Shown here piece after piece: positions 50,414 through 64,000 of a stretch of 64,000 nucleotides of DNA. Both the position numbers and the translations under genes were made by a program. Source of the stretch: Bacteroidales bacterium (GTDB lineage: Bacteria; Bacteroidota; Bacteroidia; Bacteroidales; UBA12077). Numbering within the stretch: the first letter of the stretch is position 1; every line of letters starts with the position of its first letter. The stretch covers positions 1 through 64,000 of the forward strand of contig DAOWGM010000077.1 of the NCBI GenBank assembly GCA_030637515.1, written 5' to 3'. The notes beneath the pieces are model-generated. The model was not told where the DNA came from, did not search any database, and saw only the letters and a list, made by a program, of their open reading frames with translations.

Positions 50414-50445
50414 TACACCAGCAGCATTAGATAAACTGTATATAA

Positions 50446-53486: not shown

Positions 53487-53600
53487 AACTGAATCTAATA
53501 ACAAATATACTCAGTCTCAGAACCAAAGTCAATTTTAGTTCTCGAACATCTATTCATAGTTAAACTAAATAAAAAAGCACAAGAGAAAAACACTTGTGCC
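53487..53600 (-). repeat. ~114-bp direct repeat, copy 1 (upstream of the STAS-like gene; includes terminator member 5)
   Basis: Matches 54182-54295 at roughly nine of ten positions by eye, including TTAGTTCTCGAACATCTATT and a GCACAAG...CTTGTGC hairpin (53576-53599) that serves as terminator of the gene ending at 53637. It is about 86 nt upstream of the STAS-like start. Confidence 0.85.
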
Positions 53601-53636
53601 AGTTGGCGATAGTTGTGTTTCAGTATGTCTTTATAA

Positions 53637-54077
53637 TTATTTCTTTTTTCCTTTATTCTTTTTTCCTTTCCCTTTTGATCCTTTGTTTTTGGTTATCTCT
53701 TTTAATTGATGAAACTCTGGTGAACCAGGCTTAATACCCAATTGTTTAGCAATAAATCCCCAGCCTTTTTCTTTATTTGTTTTGTATACTTCAACAACAT
53801 TATCGATTGGTTTTTGGCTTATTTTAGATAGTTCCAGGGCAAAATAAATTTCTGCCGGTTCCATTTTAACCGAAGTTCTTAAAAAATCAATCTTTTTTTC
53901 TTCAATATTAAAGGATACGGTTAAATCTGTTTTAAAAGATCCAAAATCCAGTTTGGCGCTGGTATTAATTTTGTTTAAATCAGCATCAAGTTCTACACTC
54001 CCGGTGTTAAACGGAAATTGTGCAAAAGAGATTAAGCTAATCGCTACTAAACTATAAACTAAAAGTACTTTTTTCAT
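53637..54077 (-). CDS. Secreted protein with Lys/Gly-rich basic tail, unknown function
   Basis: 146 residues. Signal peptide (1-19, SLISFAQ), then a beta-rich part (SVELDADLNKINTSAKLDFG; FKTDLTVSFNIEEKKIDFLR), an amphipathic helix region (MEPAEIYFALELSKISQKPI, IAKQLGIKPGSPEFHQLKEI) and a terminal repeat of KGKGKKNKG type. The basic tail may bind nucleic acid, lipopolysaccharide or polyanions. No known family recognised. Confidence 0.65.
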   Translation of the reverse strand: MKKVLLVYSLVAISLISFAQFPFNTGSVELDADLNKINTSAKLDFGSFKTDLTVSFNIEEKKIDFLRTSVKMEPAEIYFALELSKISQKPIDNVVEVYKTNKEKGWGFIAKQLGIKPGSPEFHQLKEITKNKGSKGKGKKNKGKKK

Positions 54078-54138
54078 TTTTTCTTAATTTAAGGTTAAAG
54101 TGCACATTTAATGAATATATGATGTAATTTGAACTTCA

Positions 54139-54180
54139 ATCTAACTAAAACTTTTAATCCAATTCAAGGCTTCTTCAAAT
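54139..54180 (-). pseudogene. Truncated relic of a STAS-like gene paralogue
   Basis: Leftward frame FEEALNWIKSFS-stop, nearly identical in DNA (54139-54176 against 52995-53031) to the last codons of the STAS-like gene at 52997. It is joined directly to copy 2 of the upstream-region repeat. The two halves of the original gene's surroundings are present and the gene body is missing, so this is an internally deleted duplicate. Confidence 0.75.
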
Positions 54181-54181
54181 G

Positions 54182-54295
54182 AACTGAATCTGATAACAAA
54201 GATACTCAGTCTCAAAACCAAAGTCAATTTTAGTTCTCGAACATCTATTCATAGTTTAACTAAATAAAAAAGCACAAGCGAAAACACCTGTGCTA
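54182..54295 (-). repeat. ~114-bp direct repeat, copy 2 (includes terminator member 6)
   Basis: Copy of 53487-53600 with about eight differences, including the hairpin AGCACAAGCG-AAAACAC-CTGTGCT. It sits immediately upstream (leftward) of the STAS-like relic, the same relation copy 1 has to the intact gene. Confidence 0.85.
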
Positions 54296-54340
54296 TTTCA
54301 TATAAGATTAGCGTAACGAATATGCTACATTTAATTGTAG

Positions 54341-54416: not shown

Positions 54417-54481
54417 AAAGTACAAGCGAAAGACGCCTGCCTGCCGGTTTAACTGCCGAAGGAAGTCAGGCAGGCTTGCAC
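54417..54481 (-). repeat. Member 7 of the GCACAAG family with a nested CCTGCCTG hairpin
   Basis: GTACAAGCG at the left and GCTTGCAC at the right form outer arms. Inside, GCCTGCCTG and CAGGCAGGC form a 9-bp stem around a CTGCCGAAGG loop region. It lies 14 nt past the stop of the gene ending at 54496 and may be its terminator. It looks like another repeat inserted into the family element. Confidence 0.6.
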
Positions 54482-56002: not shown

Positions 56003-57325
56003 TCAAATATCTTGGTTACCAAAACTATAACCTTCTTCTTTTAGTTTTTTTAAAAAAGAAAATCTTAATCGTTCTGCAAAATTACTGTCCAATGGAAGTA
56101 TTCCTTTCTTATTATTTTTAAGTGCATCTATTGCTTGTATAGAGCCTTTTAACATCATTAAAATGGTGGGTTCAATAAATTTATTAGGTATACCTTTATT
56201 TATTCCATCGAAGTTAATAGGAAATCCCCCATTTAGAAAATTTATTTTTTTCCCTAAAATATTAAATATTAATGTGCTGTGTATTTCCTTAACATTTAGC
56301 TTACTTTTCTCGAAAACTATATCATCAACGTCGCTGGAATCTGCAAGTTCAATAAATTCTTGTCTTGACAATTCACTAGCTCCAGATGAAGCACTTACTA
56401 AAATTGCATTGTCTTCCAAATAAACAGCATCTCCAATTTTGAAAGATGACTTTCCAGTACATCCTATCACAAGATTAAATTTGGTTTTAAAGTCATTCTT
56501 ATCCCATATCTTAAACTGTACATTAATAGCTTTTTTTAAATTTTTCGGATTAATGTCAAATACATAAGTGTTTTCAGTACGTATACCTATAGATTCATTA
56601 ATAAATCGTGCTACATTTCTTCCAATCGCTCCATAACCTAAAATAAGGCAATTCCATGATTGAAAATCTCCTTTTATTTTTTTCAGGGCATTTCTTAAGG
56701 AAGAATTAATTGCAATGCCTACAAATGGAGCTTCTAATTCAATTTTAGGCTTTGATTGCGCTACATTAATTATTGGTATTTCTGTAGAAAGTAATTTTAG
56801 AGTTGAGTTTTCTTCGATTTTGAATATTCCACGACTCGTTTGTTCAACTATGCAAATGTTAAGTAGTTTTTCTTTAAAAGTAGCAATTGTTTCTAAGAAG
56901 TATGCCCCATCATCGAGTACTAAAAGCTTATTCGGTTTCATTTCCAACAGTTCGATATAAAGCTCTTGGATTCTTGTTCTCTGGTAAGTTGCATATGGTT
57001 TGGTAACATCATACTTATGTATAAAGAAGTTTTCTATGGGGATGCTTTTTAGTGATTTACGGACATAATCTGATGAAGTGTAAGGAATATCTAACCAATA
57101 GATATCTTTATATTCGACCCCCAATGCATTTAAACTTTCTACTAATGGTAGTTGATTTGAGAATTGATGTTGAATAAGCAGTACTGTGACTCCTTTTAAT
57201 GCCGAAGTATGTTCATTTTCTGCCAACAATTCTTTTACCATAGGCATATCATCCGAATCTCGACTCTTCTCAGAAATAAAATCAAATTCGGTTTCAGGCT
57301 CAAAGTGAATATTCTTTAATATCAT
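56003..57325 (-). CDS. Divergent S-adenosylhomocysteine-hydrolase-like NAD-binding protein
   Basis: About 440 residues. The order of landmarks follows AdoHcy hydrolase: LDDGAYFLETIATF (family LDDGGDL), VEQTSRGIFKIEE (family EETTTG), PIINVAQSKPKIE (family INVNDSVTKSK), the NAD fold CLILGYGAIGRNVARFINES with YVFDINPKNL, then GCTGKSSF and SASSGASELSRQEF, and NGGFPINFDG near the end. The Asp-Asn that follows the active-site Lys in true enzymes is not seen. So it is probably a homologue acting on a different substrate, or a sensor. The ATG at 57325 is chosen over a TTG nine codons upstream. It stands at the left border of the accessory region. Confidence 0.7.
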   Translation of the reverse strand: MILKNIHFEPETEFDFISEKSRDSDDMPMVKELLAENEHTSALKGVTVLLIQHQFSNQLPLVESLNALGVEYKDIYWLDIPYTSSDYVRKSLKSIPIENFFIHKYDVTKPYATYQRTRIQELYIELLEMKPNKLLVLDDGAYFLETIATFKEKLLNICIVEQTSRGIFKIEENSTLKLLSTEIPIINVAQSKPKIELEAPFVGIAINSSLRNALKKIKGDFQSWNCLILGYGAIGRNVARFINESIGIRTENTYVFDINPKNLKKAINVQFKIWDKNDFKTKFNLVIGCTGKSSFKIGDAVYLEDNAILVSASSGASELSRQEFIELADSSDVDDIVFEKSKLNVKEIHSTLIFNILGKKINFLNGGFPINFDGINKGIPNKFIEPTILMMLKGSIQAIDALKNNKKGILPLDSNFAERLRFSFLKKLKEEGYSFGNQDI

Positions 57326-57388
57326 AATACCATTTTGATTTTCATTATACAAGCTTTCCTTTTATACTATTGCACCGCGCTCGTAGGT

Positions 57389-57603: not shown

Positions 57604-58131
57604 TTATCCAATAAATTCAATAAAAACATTAAAATCTTCCCTCATCTTCTTTATTATTGATGATTCTGTTTTCTCTTTAATTGAATTTTCTATCCTTTTA
57701 TCTTCACTTTCATCGTGAAATAAATAATAGACATAATCAAAATCTTCACATAAAGTATGCATTATAGATTGACCAATACCTTGCTTTACAGTTGAACCAT
57801 TTGGACTCTGCTTATATTCTATAGCAATTAAGTAAGGTGCAGTAATAATAAAATCAGGATAATTCCTTGATCCAAATGACGTTTTTCTTTGCTTACCATA
57901 TTGTCCTTCCTGACCTTCCCAATAAAATGCTTTATTTGCTTTTGCTTCAAAATCGGTAATTCCAGTTTTCTCATAATATTTTTCTAAATATCGAATTATT
58001 AAAGGTCGAATTTCCGCTTGAATTTGAGTTTCAGTTTTATCGAATGTTCTTTTTCTAAATTGTGGGCTTTCAATAATAGATTTATGAAGTCCTTCAATAA
58101 AATCAATAACTTGTTGTGTTTTTCTTTTCAT
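57604..58131 (-). CDS. Small PD-(D/E)XK-type nuclease
   Basis: 175 residues. The core shows YPDFIITAPYLIAIEYKQSP, i.e. the D at the end of one strand and E-x-K on the next, typical of PD-(D/E)XK nucleases. It is preceded by helices (QIQAEIRPLIIRYLEKYYEK) and followed by GQSIMHTLCEDFDYVYYLFH with the extra-fold Q helix. No specificity or partner domain. Standalone in an accessory region next to Gabija-like genes; a role in defence or DNA repair is possible but not shown. Confidence 0.7.
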   Translation of the reverse strand: MKRKTQQVIDFIEGLHKSIIESPQFRKRTFDKTETQIQAEIRPLIIRYLEKYYEKTGITDFEAKANKAFYWEGQEGQYGKQRKTSFGSRNYPDFIITAPYLIAIEYKQSPNGSTVKQGIGQSIMHTLCEDFDYVYYLFHDESEDKRIENSIKEKTESSIIKKMREDFNVFIEFIG

Positions 58132-58415: not shown

Positions 58416-59711
58416 TCATTCATCAAAAATCGGAATTAATGTCATTTCAATTTCCGAAGGAATTCTAGCTGTTTCAGTAGTATAAGTATCCTTAAATTTA
58501 AATACTCCAACTTGCACGGTTATATCTCTTCCTGAAAAATCACTTTCATTCCAAAAGCTCATATAAAGGTTCCCATTATTAGGAGTATTTTTCATCTCTA
58601 TTTTTGCATAATCTGATGTAACATTATTGCCTTCTTTGAAAGTGAAATAACTATAATTATTTGAATACATAAATGCATTTTTGTTATCCAAATCCAAGAA
58701 TTGGTAATTAATCGTTGCTGTTGTATTTATCATAGGTAGTTCAGTAATTAATCCTAATCCAAATGCAGCTATTGGATTTGGTGCAAAGCTTGACAATTCA
58801 CTTATACTTTCTGCTAATTGTTTCATTTCTTGAACACTCTCTTGATCTACTCCAAGCCAGTATATCCAGTATTGGGTGTCTTCTGGTATTTTTATATCTA
58901 CGAATGCTTTATTTACATTATCTAAATTTGTTTGAGAATATACACGAAACTTTCTATTAATTAATTCTTGGTAAGTTGTATCCCTATTAGCCAAGATCTG
59001 AATATTTTGATAACTATAAAGAGTATCAATCTGTTCTTTTAATCTGACATTTGTGTTAAAATCATGCGTTTCCTGACTTTTAGGAATTCTTTTTATTGTC
59101 ATTTTGCAGTCTTTCATTATTAATGCAGTAGCAGAAACAGAAAAACAATAAATTGATTTTTTATTGACTTTTATTTTAATATCATTCTTTTCTCGAAAAT
59201 TATTTGCAGTATATTTAACTATATTCGGATATTCACTAATTTCTAAATTTAAATTGCCTCGTTTCTCGGTAATTTCAATATTAACTACAATTTCATCACC
59301 TGGAGCAAATGCATAATAATATATTTCATCTTCTAAAACTGGCGCATAAAAGTTAAGATCTGCAACAATAATCTCATCTGGTGTAAGGTTTTCAGAATGT
59401 GATTGTTCTATATTATTAGTTTGTTCAAACTCAAATTTTATTACTTTTTGTTGATCAGATATTATCTCAAGGATTTTATCTTCTTCAACAACCTTCCCGT
59501 TAATTAAGCTTTTCGCTTGGAAATAATGTTCACCTTCGGTTATTTCAAATTTGGAAGGTGTATTGGCTGTAGTTTTTCCAATCTCATCACCATCAACTAC
59601 TATCGTAGCATCATTATTAGTAATGATCAATATAGTTCCTTTGTTTTGTCCTTGAACAATGCCACTAAGTAAAAAGAAACTAATAAATAATATCTTCTTT
59701 AATTTTTTCAT
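58416..59711 (-). CDS. Exported PEGA-domain protein, unknown function
   Basis: 431 residues. Signal peptide (1-21, GIVQGQ); a PEGA-like beta domain (~24-95: ILIITNNDATIVVDGDEIGK, KFEITEGEHYFQAK); a second beta domain (~110-205, YYYAFAPGDEIVVNIEITEK); and a third beta-rich part with QYWIYWLGVDQESVQEMKQL and MSFWNESDFSGRDITVQVGV. Likely periplasmic or cell-surface. Its last 4 nt overlap a possible start of the small lipoprotein, so the two form an operon. No enzymatic motif seen. Confidence 0.7.
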   Translation of the reverse strand: MKKLKKILFISFFLLSGIVQGQNKGTILIITNNDATIVVDGDEIGKTTANTPSKFEITEGEHYFQAKSLINGKVVEEDKILEIISDQQKVIKFEFEQTNNIEQSHSENLTPDEIIVADLNFYAPVLEDEIYYYAFAPGDEIVVNIEITEKRGNLNLEISEYPNIVKYTANNFREKNDIKIKVNKKSIYCFSVSATALIMKDCKMTIKRIPKSQETHDFNTNVRLKEQIDTLYSYQNIQILANRDTTYQELINRKFRVYSQTNLDNVNKAFVDIKIPEDTQYWIYWLGVDQESVQEMKQLAESISELSSFAPNPIAAFGLGLITELPMINTTATINYQFLDLDNKNAFMYSNNYSYFTFKEGNNVTSDYAKIEMKNTPNNGNLYMSFWNESDFSGRDITVQVGVFKFKDTYTTETARIPSEIEMTLIPIFDE

Positions 59712-59763
59712 GATTATGATTTTTCTGTTTTGTTATAGTGTTCTGTTTTTATTTATTGAATAT

Positions 59764-59785
59764 GACGTAGCGATGACGCTACGTC
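59764..59785. repeat. Palindrome GACGTAGCG-ATGA-CGCTACGTC
   Basis: A 9-bp perfect GC-rich stem upstream of the PEGA gene (52 nt from its start), with no T run. Followed by GGGATATGATTACAAAT, similar to a repeat around 58180-58203. Possibly an operator or a dispersed palindromic repeat. Confidence 0.55.
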
Positions 59786-59853
59786 TAACAGGGATATGAT
59801 TACAAATTTCTACTATTCCATAAATAAAATCACCTATTTTCACTTTTCTAAGT

Positions 59854-60054
59854 TTAACTAATTCTAAAATGACTGAGCATTTTATTAACCATATATCCAA
59901 TATTCATATATTCATGAGTGCTGATTAATGTTTTGCAGGATGAACATCTCAAAAAAAACATTTTCCAGTTGGAATTTTCAGGTGTGTCTTCAACAACTTC
60001 AAAATTTGTACTTTCGCATTTAGGACATTTAGAATTACTGTAATTAGTTGACAT
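59854..60054 (-). CDS. Small zinc-ribbon protein
   Basis: 66 residues. Two CxxC knuckles, KCPKCEST and RCSSCKTL, 28 residues apart, with NWKMFFLRC between: a zinc-ribbon fold. No other domain. Positioned 62 nt downstream of the UvrD-like helicase gene on the same strand, so possibly co-transcribed with the Gabija-like pair. Function unknown. Confidence 0.7.
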   Translation of the reverse strand: MSTNYSNSKCPKCESTNFEVVEDTPENSNWKMFFLRCSSCKTLISTHEYMNIGYMVNKMLSHFRIS

Positions 60055-60115
60055 AGTTTTAGATTTTTAAGAGTTAATATAAGGTACAACGACATATACA
60101 TTGATTTGCAACTCA

Positions 60116-62053
60116 TTATATTTCAGACATATTGATAACATTACTTGCGCCGAACCATTCTTTAGCTTTTGCTACGACAGCATCTGATGGATCATGATAG
60201 AAAACAGCAAGATTTTCTTTTGCCCTTGTACAACACACATAAAATATTTTTTGAGATCTTTCAAGTACACTTGCAGAACCTGATTCCAAAAATAGATTTT
60301 CAAAATTGTACTTATTCCATCCTCCATTATCTAGAATTACCAAAATATTATTGAATTCAGTTCCTTTGGTTTTATGTTGGGTCGAAAATGGTGTTTTCCC
60401 TTCTAAATACTCATATAATTTTTGGAACTCTCTATAATGAACATCCTTTACTCGATTATATAAATACTCCTTTTCTGTTTTAAATTTTTCTACGTTTTCA
60501 TCAATTAGGCAAATTCCTTTTTCGTGTGCATCAAGTATTGCTTCTTCGATTGTTCTTTCTCCAACATTTATTAACTCGTCAATATTACTCTTGAGTATTC
60601 TTTTATCTTCAATACTCCGAATCATAGTTCTGAAGTCTGTAATTCTTATAAATTCATTAAACTGCTTGTTTTGGTATAATGAAATATTTCGTTGGACTTT
60701 AAAAAGATGTTTAATTAGATTATCTCGTTTTGAACCTTTCTTGTTTATATCATCCTCATCTTGTTTTTTATCATCAATCAATGAATCCTTATCCAAATAT
60801 ATTCTTCTAACATAAGAAAAAGGTTTATTCTTTAAGAGATTGTAAAGAGCTTCGTTATCTGGATCTTGTAATAGAATATCTTTTTTTAATTCTCGTTGTC
60901 TATTTTTCAATTGAAATTTATCTACAACAATATCAAATGAATCATTTTCTTCTATTAAAATTTCTGGTCTATTATTCTTCTTATTGTTTTTAATTTTATC
61001 AAGAATTTCTTTCTTTAATTTGATAACTGGGTCTTTATCATAGATATCCATTAAATTTCTAAAACCCGCTTTATCCGCAATAAGATTGTGCGTTAGATTT
61101 AATTCTTTGGTCTCTTTTGAATCTGAAAAATCCCATCCATTATTTTCTGACAAATACTGTTTTGCTATATTAATGTCATCATCTTCAGAATACAAAAAAA
61201 GTATTTTACCATTGATTACCTCACCTTCCAACATATTGGGTGCTGATATATCATTCGATGGAACTTGAACTATTCCATCAGTTCGCAATTTGTTAGCTAT
61301 ATCTATTATTAATTGTGGATTTCGCCTATTTTGTTCTTTTTTCACTTCCTTTACTTTTCCCTCTTCATCTCCTTTGTATTCATCTATATTTCCAATTCCA
61401 TCATCATAGATTGATTGCATTGAATCTCCAAAAAATCCTATAATACTTTGCTTTTTACTGTTAGGGAAATGATCAAGAAAGGATTGTACAACTGCTTTAT
61501 TTGTATCTTGATATTCATCTATAAGAATGAATTTATACTTGTCTTTTACAATATCACTCAACTTTGGGTAATGTTCAAACATGTATTTAGATACAATGAG
61601 AAGTTCATCATGAGAAATTATTCCTTCTCTTAATCTCAAATATTCTTTGTACTGTATTCCATCTTTACAATCAATAAAAAAATCGATAGGAACAGGATTC
61701 TGTTCATCAATTTTTATTCTGGTCACTTCATCGTCATTAGCAAGCGTAATAAGAGCCACTTTTAATTCATTTTGAAAATGTTTGATATTGTCCCATAAAA
61801 AATCATGAATAGTTGATACGCTCAAATTTTTATGGTCAACTCTTTCTTCAATCTCTTTTACAGCAGCATTTGTATATGTCATACATGCAATTTTAGATGT
61901 GGGATTTTCTCTAATTACTTGCTTAATAACTTGGACTAAAGAAAAAGTTTTTCCACTCCCAGCTCCACCGCTTAAAAGGAAATTTCTACCTGCATCAATA
62001 CATTCAAGTATTTCTTGAACTTCGGGTTCTAATTCTAATCTTGCTTCAACCAT
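60116..62053 (-). CDS. gajB: UvrD/PcrA-like superfamily 1 helicase, GajB-like
   Basis: 645 residues. SF1 motifs: Walker A SGGAGSGKTFSL (29-36 core), Ia CMTYTNAAVKEIEER, II FILIDEYQDTNKAVVQSF (DEYQDT 179-184), III GFFGDSMQSIYDD, IV EQNRRNPQLIIDIANKL, V STQHKTKGTEFNNILVILD, VI FYVCCTRAKENL (604-615). In Gabija the GajB protein senses or unwinds DNA ends and stimulates the GajA nuclease. It overlaps the OLD-family gene upstream by 19 nt, the class 2 OLD arrangement. It is longer than the best-known GajB (~500 residues), owing to an internal insertion with basic/acidic stretches (~390-480). Confidence 0.85.
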   Translation of the reverse strand: MVEARLELEPEVQEILECIDAGRNFLLSGGAGSGKTFSLVQVIKQVIRENPTSKIACMTYTNAAVKEIEERVDHKNLSVSTIHDFLWDNIKHFQNELKVALITLANDDEVTRIKIDEQNPVPIDFFIDCKDGIQYKEYLRLREGIISHDELLIVSKYMFEHYPKLSDIVKDKYKFILIDEYQDTNKAVVQSFLDHFPNSKKQSIIGFFGDSMQSIYDDGIGNIDEYKGDEEGKVKEVKKEQNRRNPQLIIDIANKLRTDGIVQVPSNDISAPNMLEGEVINGKILFLYSEDDDINIAKQYLSENNGWDFSDSKETKELNLTHNLIADKAGFRNLMDIYDKDPVIKLKKEILDKIKNNKKNNRPEILIEENDSFDIVVDKFQLKNRQRELKKDILLQDPDNEALYNLLKNKPFSYVRRIYLDKDSLIDDKKQDEDDINKKGSKRDNLIKHLFKVQRNISLYQNKQFNEFIRITDFRTMIRSIEDKRILKSNIDELINVGERTIEEAILDAHEKGICLIDENVEKFKTEKEYLYNRVKDVHYREFQKLYEYLEGKTPFSTQHKTKGTEFNNILVILDNGGWNKYNFENLFLESGSASVLERSQKIFYVCCTRAKENLAVFYHDPSDAVVAKAKEWFGASNVINMSEI

Positions 62054-64000
62054 ACTAGTCCATCCTTTATATATTCAGGAATCTTCCAATTGCTAAATTC
62101 TTTGTTATTCTCATCTGTTTTACTATTTAGTAATATCTCTATTGCCAATGATAGTTTTTTGATTACTGCTTTTTCTGAAAATTCGAATACATCAATTTCA
62201 TCATTATTGTATTTTTCTATATATGTGGGTTTTAAACTCTGAAAAGAATTATCAGAATTTGTAATGAAATCTTTATTAATGTGGAAAAAAGAATCTTCAA
62301 AACTTCTTGCATGATAATCTGCTTCTTCTTGTTGATATAATACAAGCAAATTACCTTCCTTATCAGAATGCCAACCACCATCCCCATTTTTACTAAGTAT
62401 CTTTAAGTCAAAGTGCAGATTTTTAAAATAATTCAATTCTACTTTTCTATCATGAAAGAACTTTAATGAATTATTAGAAGTATATTTTGCTTCGGTGTCA
62501 CTAGCAGCGCATTTAACTTGTTCAAATATAGGATTACCTGTTGTTTCATATTTTTTTTGTGTAATTCCATCTGATTCAAAAACAGGTTTCTTATAAAAGC
62601 TATCTATATCTGTAATTATTAGTGATTTTTCTATCCCTATAAATTCAATAAAAGTTTCAAATATTTGAGAATGTGCACCAACTTCAACTATTGATATGTT
62701 TTGTGATAATAATGGATTCTCTGGTAATTCTTGATCAATTTTTCTCATTATAGCAGGTAATAAAATTCTTTCCGTATCACCTTCAATAAAAATAGCCTTG
62801 TCAGCAAAAAATAATTCTGCTCTATTGAGAGTAAGGTATTGTTTTAAAAATCTGAAATTTCTTTCTTCTTCACCATACTCTTTCTCCAAGTCTTTTAAGT
62901 TTTTAGTAACGATAACATTGTCAGAATCTTTTTTCAAATATTTTATATCGTTAAAGTCACTATCGGCTGCAATATGTGAAGAATGTGTACTAATAATATA
63001 CTGTAGTTTTCTGTTTGCACCATCCTCACGTTTTATTCCTTCTTTAAGTAAGTTCTTTATGTTTTTAATGAATATATATTGCATTTGAGGATGAGTATGT
63101 GCTTCTGGTTCTTCAATAAACAACAGATTAATATCGGCTGGTTCTTCGTCTTTCTTTCGTTTAAATTCCTGAACAAGGATTTCAATTTCGAATATCATGC
63201 TTATTAAATTCATATAGCCCAAACCATTATTATATTCAGGCAATTTATTTTTTTCATCATGTTTATAAACAACTGTTGTGTTACCTTCAAGCAATTCTCT
63301 ATGCTGTAAAGTAGAAATAATTTCAATTTCAGATTCATTAGGTTTTATTCCTCCAAATAGTTTTATCTTATCAATAGTTTCACTAAAAAGGCTTGAATAA
63401 ATGCTACTTAATTGAGTATCAGTTTCACTAAGTTGATCCTTAAAATCTTCAATTATATTATTTTGTTCTTCGCTAGCTTCTGTTCTTTTGTAAATTTTAG
63501 ATGTTTGCGTGGAAAGTGTTTTGTCAATTTCTCTATTTGTAACGTCTCTTTTAGCACTTATGTATTTAAAATTCAATATTTCTTTAATACTAATATTTTC
63601 TTTATCTATGTCAATAAAGTTAGACCCTTCCACTTCTTTTGTGTTTTTATTAAAACCAAAAGAGTATTTTTTTGATTTAAAGTAATCTGCCTGTCTATGA
63701 TTTAAATAATCGAAAAAGGTCTTTATTCTATAATTTTCTTCTTTTTGTACCTTCTTTTTTTCATTTACTTCAAATTCTTTGTATTCACTTTTTAAATGTT
63801 TATAATCAGAGTATCCAAGGATGTATTCAAAACCTAATACAACAACATTATTTTCTGGATCTAAATCCATCATAATCTTGCTAATATTAGATAAATTGTC
63901 TTCTTCAAAATATTCAATAAATAACTTAAGCTTTATTCCAATTGGAGAGTAATCATCTTCTTGAATGGTTTCTGGACTTATAATTAGAGTATCTAATTCT
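62035..64000 (-). CDS. gajA: OLD-family ATPase/TOPRIM nuclease, GajA-like (5' part beyond window)
   Basis: The frame stays open to base 64000, so the start and Walker A lie outside; 654 residues are visible. Seen in order: an ABC-type signature region NNGLGYMNLISMIFEIE, Walker B LLFIEEPEAHTHPQMQ, H-loop ISTHSSHIAADSDF, then the TOPRIM domain with IFIEGDTERILLPAIM (acid E at about 62784) and IITDIDSFYKK (DxD at about 62610), and the OLD C-terminal ARSFEDSF motif. OLD nucleases with an adjacent UvrD-like helicase define Gabija, where a GajA tetramer nicks DNA when nucleotides fall during phage infection. An apparent start at 63873 is only an internal Met. Confidence 0.85.
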   Translation of the reverse strand, partial: ELDTLIISPETIQEDDYSPIGIKLKLFIEYFEEDNLSNISKIMMDLDPENNVVVLGFEYILGYSDYKHLKSEYKEFEVNEKKKVQKEENYRIKTFFDYLNHRQADYFKSKKYSFGFNKNTKEVEGSNFIDIDKENISIKEILNFKYISAKRDVTNREIDKTLSTQTSKIYKRTEASEEQNNIIEDFKDQLSETDTQLSSIYSSLFSETIDKIKLFGGIKPNESEIEIISTLQHRELLEGNTTVVYKHDEKNKLPEYNNGLGYMNLISMIFEIEILVQEFKRKKDEEPADINLLFIEEPEAHTHPQMQYIFIKNIKNLLKEGIKREDGANRKLQYIISTHSSHIAADSDFNDIKYLKKDSDNVIVTKNLKDLEKEYGEEERNFRFLKQYLTLNRAELFFADKAIFIEGDTERILLPAIMRKIDQELPENPLLSQNISIVEVGAHSQIFETFIEFIGIEKSLIITDIDSFYKKPVFESDGITQKKYETTGNPIFEQVKCAASDTEAKYTSNNSLKFFHDRKVELNYFKNLHFDLKILSKNGDGGWHSDKEGNLLVLYQQEEADYHARSFEDSFFHINKDFITNSDNSFQSLKPTYIEKYNNDEIDVFEFSEKAVIKKLSLAIEILLNSKTDENNKEFSNWKIPEYIKDGLVWLKQD

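Follow-up and report, generated by a model that had tools for sequence, protein, structure and literature searches.

Gene content at the window's right edge

We analysed the first 64,000 bases (the window) of the 64,355-base contig DAOWGM010000077.1, assigned to a Bacteroidales bacterium (assembly GCA_030637515.1), in which two overlapping open reading frames (ORFs) at the right edge encode an OLD-family ABC-ATPase/TOPRIM nuclease (gajA) and a superfamily 1 (SF1) helicase (gajB), followed by a small zinc-ribbon gene (Table 1). An earlier note on this DNA described the two large genes as a Gabija-like anti-phage pair overlapping by 19 nt, with a possible third gene behind them. Based on the evidence set out below, the two genes very probably form a complete Gabija system of the class 2 OLD type, an anti-phage defence that is likely to be functional, and both the pair and its overlap stood up to analysis. 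The source assembly is a draft (91% completeness, 7.7% contamination), so the host of the contig is likely but not certain.

Within the window the gajA ORF (62035-63999) is open at the right edge, leaving 654 residues visible, and the remaining 355 contig bases supply its start, an ATG at contig position 64197 that gives a full length of 720 aa. Translational coupling may occur across the gajA/gajB overlap. The zinc-ribbon ORF lies 61 nt behind gajB (60055-60115), one nucleotide closer than first given. An Rfam scan of the completed locus returned zero matches, and a pattern scan detected 26 promoter-like sites (shuffled mean 29.0) and one terminator-like site (0.7 in shuffled sequence).

Table 1 Features of the locus, of the surrounding window and of related loci. 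Positions refer to the window unless stated otherwise.
Feature	Position or locus	Strand	Evidence
gajA, OLD-family ABC-ATPase/TOPRIM nuclease	62035..64000, on to contig position 64197	minus	ORF, Pfam, PADLOC, PDB profile, fold
gajB, UvrD/PcrA/Rep-like SF1 helicase, 645 aa	60116..62053	minus	ORF, PADLOC, PDB profile, fold
gajA stop/gajB start overlap, 19 nt	62035..62053	minus	ORF coordinates
66-aa CxxC...CxxC zinc-ribbon gene	59854..60054	minus	ORF, weak NF047912 match
3' end of gene upstream of gajA	contig ~64220-64355
175-aa nuclease-like protein	57604-58131	minus	PD...EYK pattern, weak PADLOC match
449-aa protein	56003-57352	minus	weak below-cutoff domain match
43-bp partly palindromic repeat	54436-54478
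Further short repeats	near 50440, 51680, 59690-59790
XRE-type gene within 26 nt of gajA, related loci	L023, L029, L030, L033, L034, L037, L041
XRE-type gene 161 nt from gajA, related locus	L045

Family assignment and predicted activity of the pair

The Gabija assignment draws on PADLOC matches, Pfam domains, the Walker A motif, invariant residues, gene linkage, the overlap and the predicted folds. Among the defence-system models, a check that the earlier note had proposed, both proteins match Gabija models best and near full-length: the window part of GajA matches PDLC00079 with 855 bits, and GajB, whose 645 aa compare with 603 positions in the model, matches PDLC00135 with 785 bits over residues 7-642. 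Far weaker hits were obtained for the GajA part to Old (72.6 bits) and AriA (132.7 bits), and for GajB to RTasHel (113.1 bits). Pfam assigns AAA_15 and OLD-like_TOPRIM domains to GajA and a UvrD-helicase domain to GajB.

The motifs reported for both proteins are intact. GajB carries GGAGSGKT, DEYQDT, GDSMQSIY, QNRR, STQHKTKGTEF and CCTRAKENL, which we take to be the SF1 helicase motifs. The window part of GajA carries a Walker B motif (FIEEPEAHTHPQ), an H-loop (STHSSH) and the TOPRIM motifs EGDTE and TDID, and extension past position 64000, as suggested in the note, recovered the Walker A motif of an ABC-ATPase (GKNNTGKT) in the completed protein. The ATPase residues K36, E362, E363 and H405 (in GKNNTGKT, IEEPEAH and STHS) and the TOPRIM residues E472, E476, D530 and D532 are invariant in 35/35 aligned proteins. 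In the PDB profile alignment, K36, H405, E472, E476, D530 and D532 align with K35, H320, E379, E383, D432 and D434 of Bacillus cereus GajA, which are named as ATPase or nuclease-site residues in the accessible parts of published work (PMC8136825, PMC10781630, PMC10822852).

The predicted folds are compatible with this assignment. A model of the GajA window part (mean pLDDT 77.2) comes closest to class 2 TOPRIM domains, those of BpOLD and XccOLD from Burkholderia and Xanthomonas (Z 13.8-12.1), followed by B. cereus GajA (Z 11.8 over 380 residues, rmsd 7.8) and the class 1 protein TsOLD (Z 9.0), so that by fold class 2 is favoured over class 1.

Several comparisons weigh against the assignment. 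In PDB searches with a profile built from 35 GajA proteins, the top match is class 1 Thermus TsOLD (E 7e-22), with B. cereus GajA ranking behind it (E about 3e-14), and the match list for a profile of 24 GajB proteins is led by PcrA (E 4e-19), with B. cereus GajB following PcrA, UvrD and Rep (E about 3e-10). Likewise, the GajB model (mean pLDDT 83.9) scores Z about 19 against UvrD/PcrA and about 17 against GajB, and Foldseek ranks PcrA first (TM-score 0.45) and GajB 30th (TM-score 0.30). Since the model fits UvrD and PcrA at least about as closely as it fits GajB, the helicase fold alone does not discriminate between them. The GajA profile alignment ends before the counterparts of B. cereus D511, D513 and K541, for which the conserved residues E634 (34/35), D635 (32/35) and K681 (34/35) are candidates only. 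In the fold alignment, GajA and its B. cereus counterpart also share just 17% identity; therefore, the site-specific nicking and the inhibition by nucleotides might not apply here.

Among the closest described systems is the Gabija of B. cereus VD045 (PDB 8SM3, 8TJY, 8JQB), which likewise combines an OLD ABC-ATPase and TOPRIM protein with a UvrD-like helicase and whose alignable catalytic residues are conserved here. However, it is distant in sequence and its proteins are shorter (GajA 578 aa versus 720 aa here, GajB 494 aa versus 645 aa). Judging by the spacing of the motifs and by domain boundaries given in the available text of PMC10822852, the additional residues of GajB probably fall within the 2A/2B region. 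The helicase had been described in the note as longer than known GajB, a claim we reject: PADLOC GajB models reach 685 positions, and among GajB relatives, the 56 whose ORF is closed and exceeds 600 aa measure 616-655 aa.

These relatives come from 64 GajB loci gathered by a scan of named genomes and fall in several phyla by record title. The proposed survey of homologous loci upheld the linkage, with gajA directly upstream of gajB in 63/64 loci, several of the gajA genes being partial at contig ends; the sole exception (L086) is a short C-terminal GajB piece. The two genes overlap by 13-25 nt in 60/63 relatives and by exactly 19 nt in 44/63, and both the length of GajB and the overlap are thus the norm in this branch, for which the locus can serve as a control that a GajB of ~640 aa is normal. 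The closest GajA among the 64 loci belongs to Labilibaculum euxinus (74% identical, 718 aa versus 720 aa; GajB 70%), which differs in having no zinc-ribbon gene downstream. Within the phylum, GajA relatives at E <= 1e-30 occur in 17/395 genomes, one of them the source genome, and gajB adjoins gajA in all 16 other matches. One of these shares an identical stretch of 5079 bases with the Chlorobaculum sp. 24CR locus (L032), which suggests that the source genome belongs to the Bacteroidota as GTDB broadly defines them.

As in B. cereus, GajA would be expected to form a tetramer joined by the GajB helicase/ATPase, and the GajAB complex would cleave invading DNA at the metal-dependent TOPRIM site, with GajB sensing DNA ends and consuming ATP. 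Experiments on homologues suggest that the pair would form such a complex, cleave DNA, sense nucleotides and restrict phages. In the accessible parts of the literature, GajA is described as a nicking endonuclease inhibited by nucleotides (PMC8136825) and the GajA:GajB complex as having 4:4 stoichiometry (PMC10568477). One published model has GajB detecting the termini of nicked DNA and hydrolysing nucleotides, with abortive infection as the outcome (PMC10822852), and another that Gabija attacks linear DNA unoccupied by RecBCD, without abortive infection (PMC12407980), as far as the available text of each report goes. The sequence of the present locus decides nothing between these models.

The zinc-ribbon gene behind gajB

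The 66-aa protein holds a CPKC...CSSC pattern and matches the ECs_2282 family of putative zinc-binding proteins (NF047912), whose entry gives no function, with 23.9 bits, under the curated cutoff of 37; three of its relatives also match this family weakly. Relatives that are 37-49% identical have CPxC...FE...(F/Y)(I/L)xCxxC in common, and this conservation indicates that the ORF is a real gene. PDB matches to LIM-type proteins (E 0.0008) were taken to reflect a common cysteine pattern.

We considered whether the zinc-ribbon protein could be the co-transcribed regulator or DNA-binding subunit of a three-component Gabija variant, given that its gene is conserved as a family and lies on the gajB strand. 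The pattern scan found no terminator-like site between gajB and this gene, so co-transcription is possible. However, the two do not recur together in either direction, and a third component is therefore highly improbable. In the survey for co-occurrence that the note had called for, tblastn with the zinc-ribbon protein gave no match better than E 1.5 in the up to 2 kb downstream of GajB (some loci offer less than this, and in L059, L082 and L086 an early end of the GajB frame puts the start of the scanned stretch inside the gene) and one match at E 0.26 in the 64 whole loci, the latter non-adjacent to the pair (L026). In 59 loci the sequence behind GajB extends for 300 nt or more; an ORF with a double CxxC occurs within 1 kb in only one of them, where it encodes an unrelated 162-aa protein. 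Conversely, neither GajA nor GajB was found in any of seven stretches, each reaching 1 to 5 kb either way, around zinc-ribbon relatives or candidate matches, among which one (L096) is broken by stops and another (L098) rests on a match of 14 residues only.

One zinc-ribbon relative, on a viral contig (L097), adjoins MuA- and MuB-like genes, another sits in a Mu-like prophage region of the Yersinia ruckeri plasmid pYR4, and the remaining relatives occupy varied places. Matches occur in 4/394 other genomes of the phylum (one broken by stops) and in four plasmid records, all from Yersinia ruckeri, and none was obtained in phage records or in 97 sampled relatives that share a genus, family or order with the source genome, many of which are incomplete drafts. 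In the accessible portions of the Gabija literature we found neither a zinc-ribbon partner nor a third gene, and the term 'zinc ribbon' occurs there only in a reference title. The most fitting reading of the zinc-ribbon gene is a mobile orphan that sits behind gajB by chance, not the third component raised earlier. That it is instead a recent, lineage-specific addition at this locus, namely a co-transcribed regulator or counter-defence protein derived from a phage or mobile element and tuning GajAB, has a very small probability in our estimate. The locus is mainly useful as a control in this respect, since a small gene behind gajB need not be a Gabija component.

We also clustered the ORFs found up to 1.5 kb from the pair across 58 related loci, and behind gajB no gene family is present in more than four. 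The families reaching four loci share a single neighbourhood (L023, L029, L030 and L077) and lie on the opposite strand. A recurrent third gene of any kind behind gajB was thus rejected.

Distribution of the pair and neighbouring features

The distribution and neighbours of the gajAB pair look like those of a mobile defence cassette, and the pair appears accessory. GajA-like matches at E <= 1e-20 are present in only 3/97 of the other sampled relatives (many of them incomplete drafts), at 26-32% identity, and none of the 97 has a GajA comparable to this one. Among 72,556 plasmid records, 133 match GajB, 16 of them over at least 80% of its length, and one related pair on a plasmid neighbours AbiEii, Fic and TaqI-like specificity genes. 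In the 58 related loci, genes named from their translations as restriction-modification-like adjoin six pairs and conjugation-like genes four (L023, L029, L030 and L033). OLD and UvrD-type proteins have relatives among repair proteins, and the PDB matches include Rad50, UvrD and AddA, but that the pair is a housekeeping repair nuclease and helicase rather than a defence system can be all but dismissed, given this accessory distribution, the spread of related pairs over several phyla, their defence- and conjugation-like neighbours and the Gabija models as best family matches of both proteins.

The locus is an ordinary intact Gabija of an already described kind, and adds one intact member to a well-studied and very common defence system that, according to the available text of PMC10781630, occurs in more than 15% of sequenced genomes. 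For a comparison with an empty site, the best syntenic contig from the genus (G402:C63) stops where it matches window positions ~53600-54300, and the window's own contig ends 355 bases past the window, so the insertion boundary cannot be defined.

The contig end truncates the gene upstream of gajA. The final 45 aa of its product are 46-51% identical to plasmid-encoded proteins (three annotated as hypothetical, one unannotated); no family was found for this 45-aa end, and the gene bears no resemblance to a helix-turn-helix gene. In 7/58 related loci, partly non-independent, a short gene named from its sequence as an XRE-type helix-turn-helix gene lies directly upstream of gajA (68-102 aa, at least two sequence types), and is perhaps a controller of Gabija expression.

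Elsewhere in the window, the 175-aa protein has a PD...EYK pattern like that of PD-(D/E)XK nucleases and a weak PADLOC match to PDC-M41A (E 0.0021), with no Pfam or PHROGs match. The nearby 449-aa protein gave a weak, below-cutoff match to the S-adenosylhomocysteine hydrolase NAD-binding domain (E 0.0036). The partly palindromic 43-bp sequence CCTGCCTG...CAGGCAGG is a dispersed repeat with short copies, 84-100% identical, in 8/19 other genomes of the same genus, and further short repeats recur at the positions listed in Table 1.

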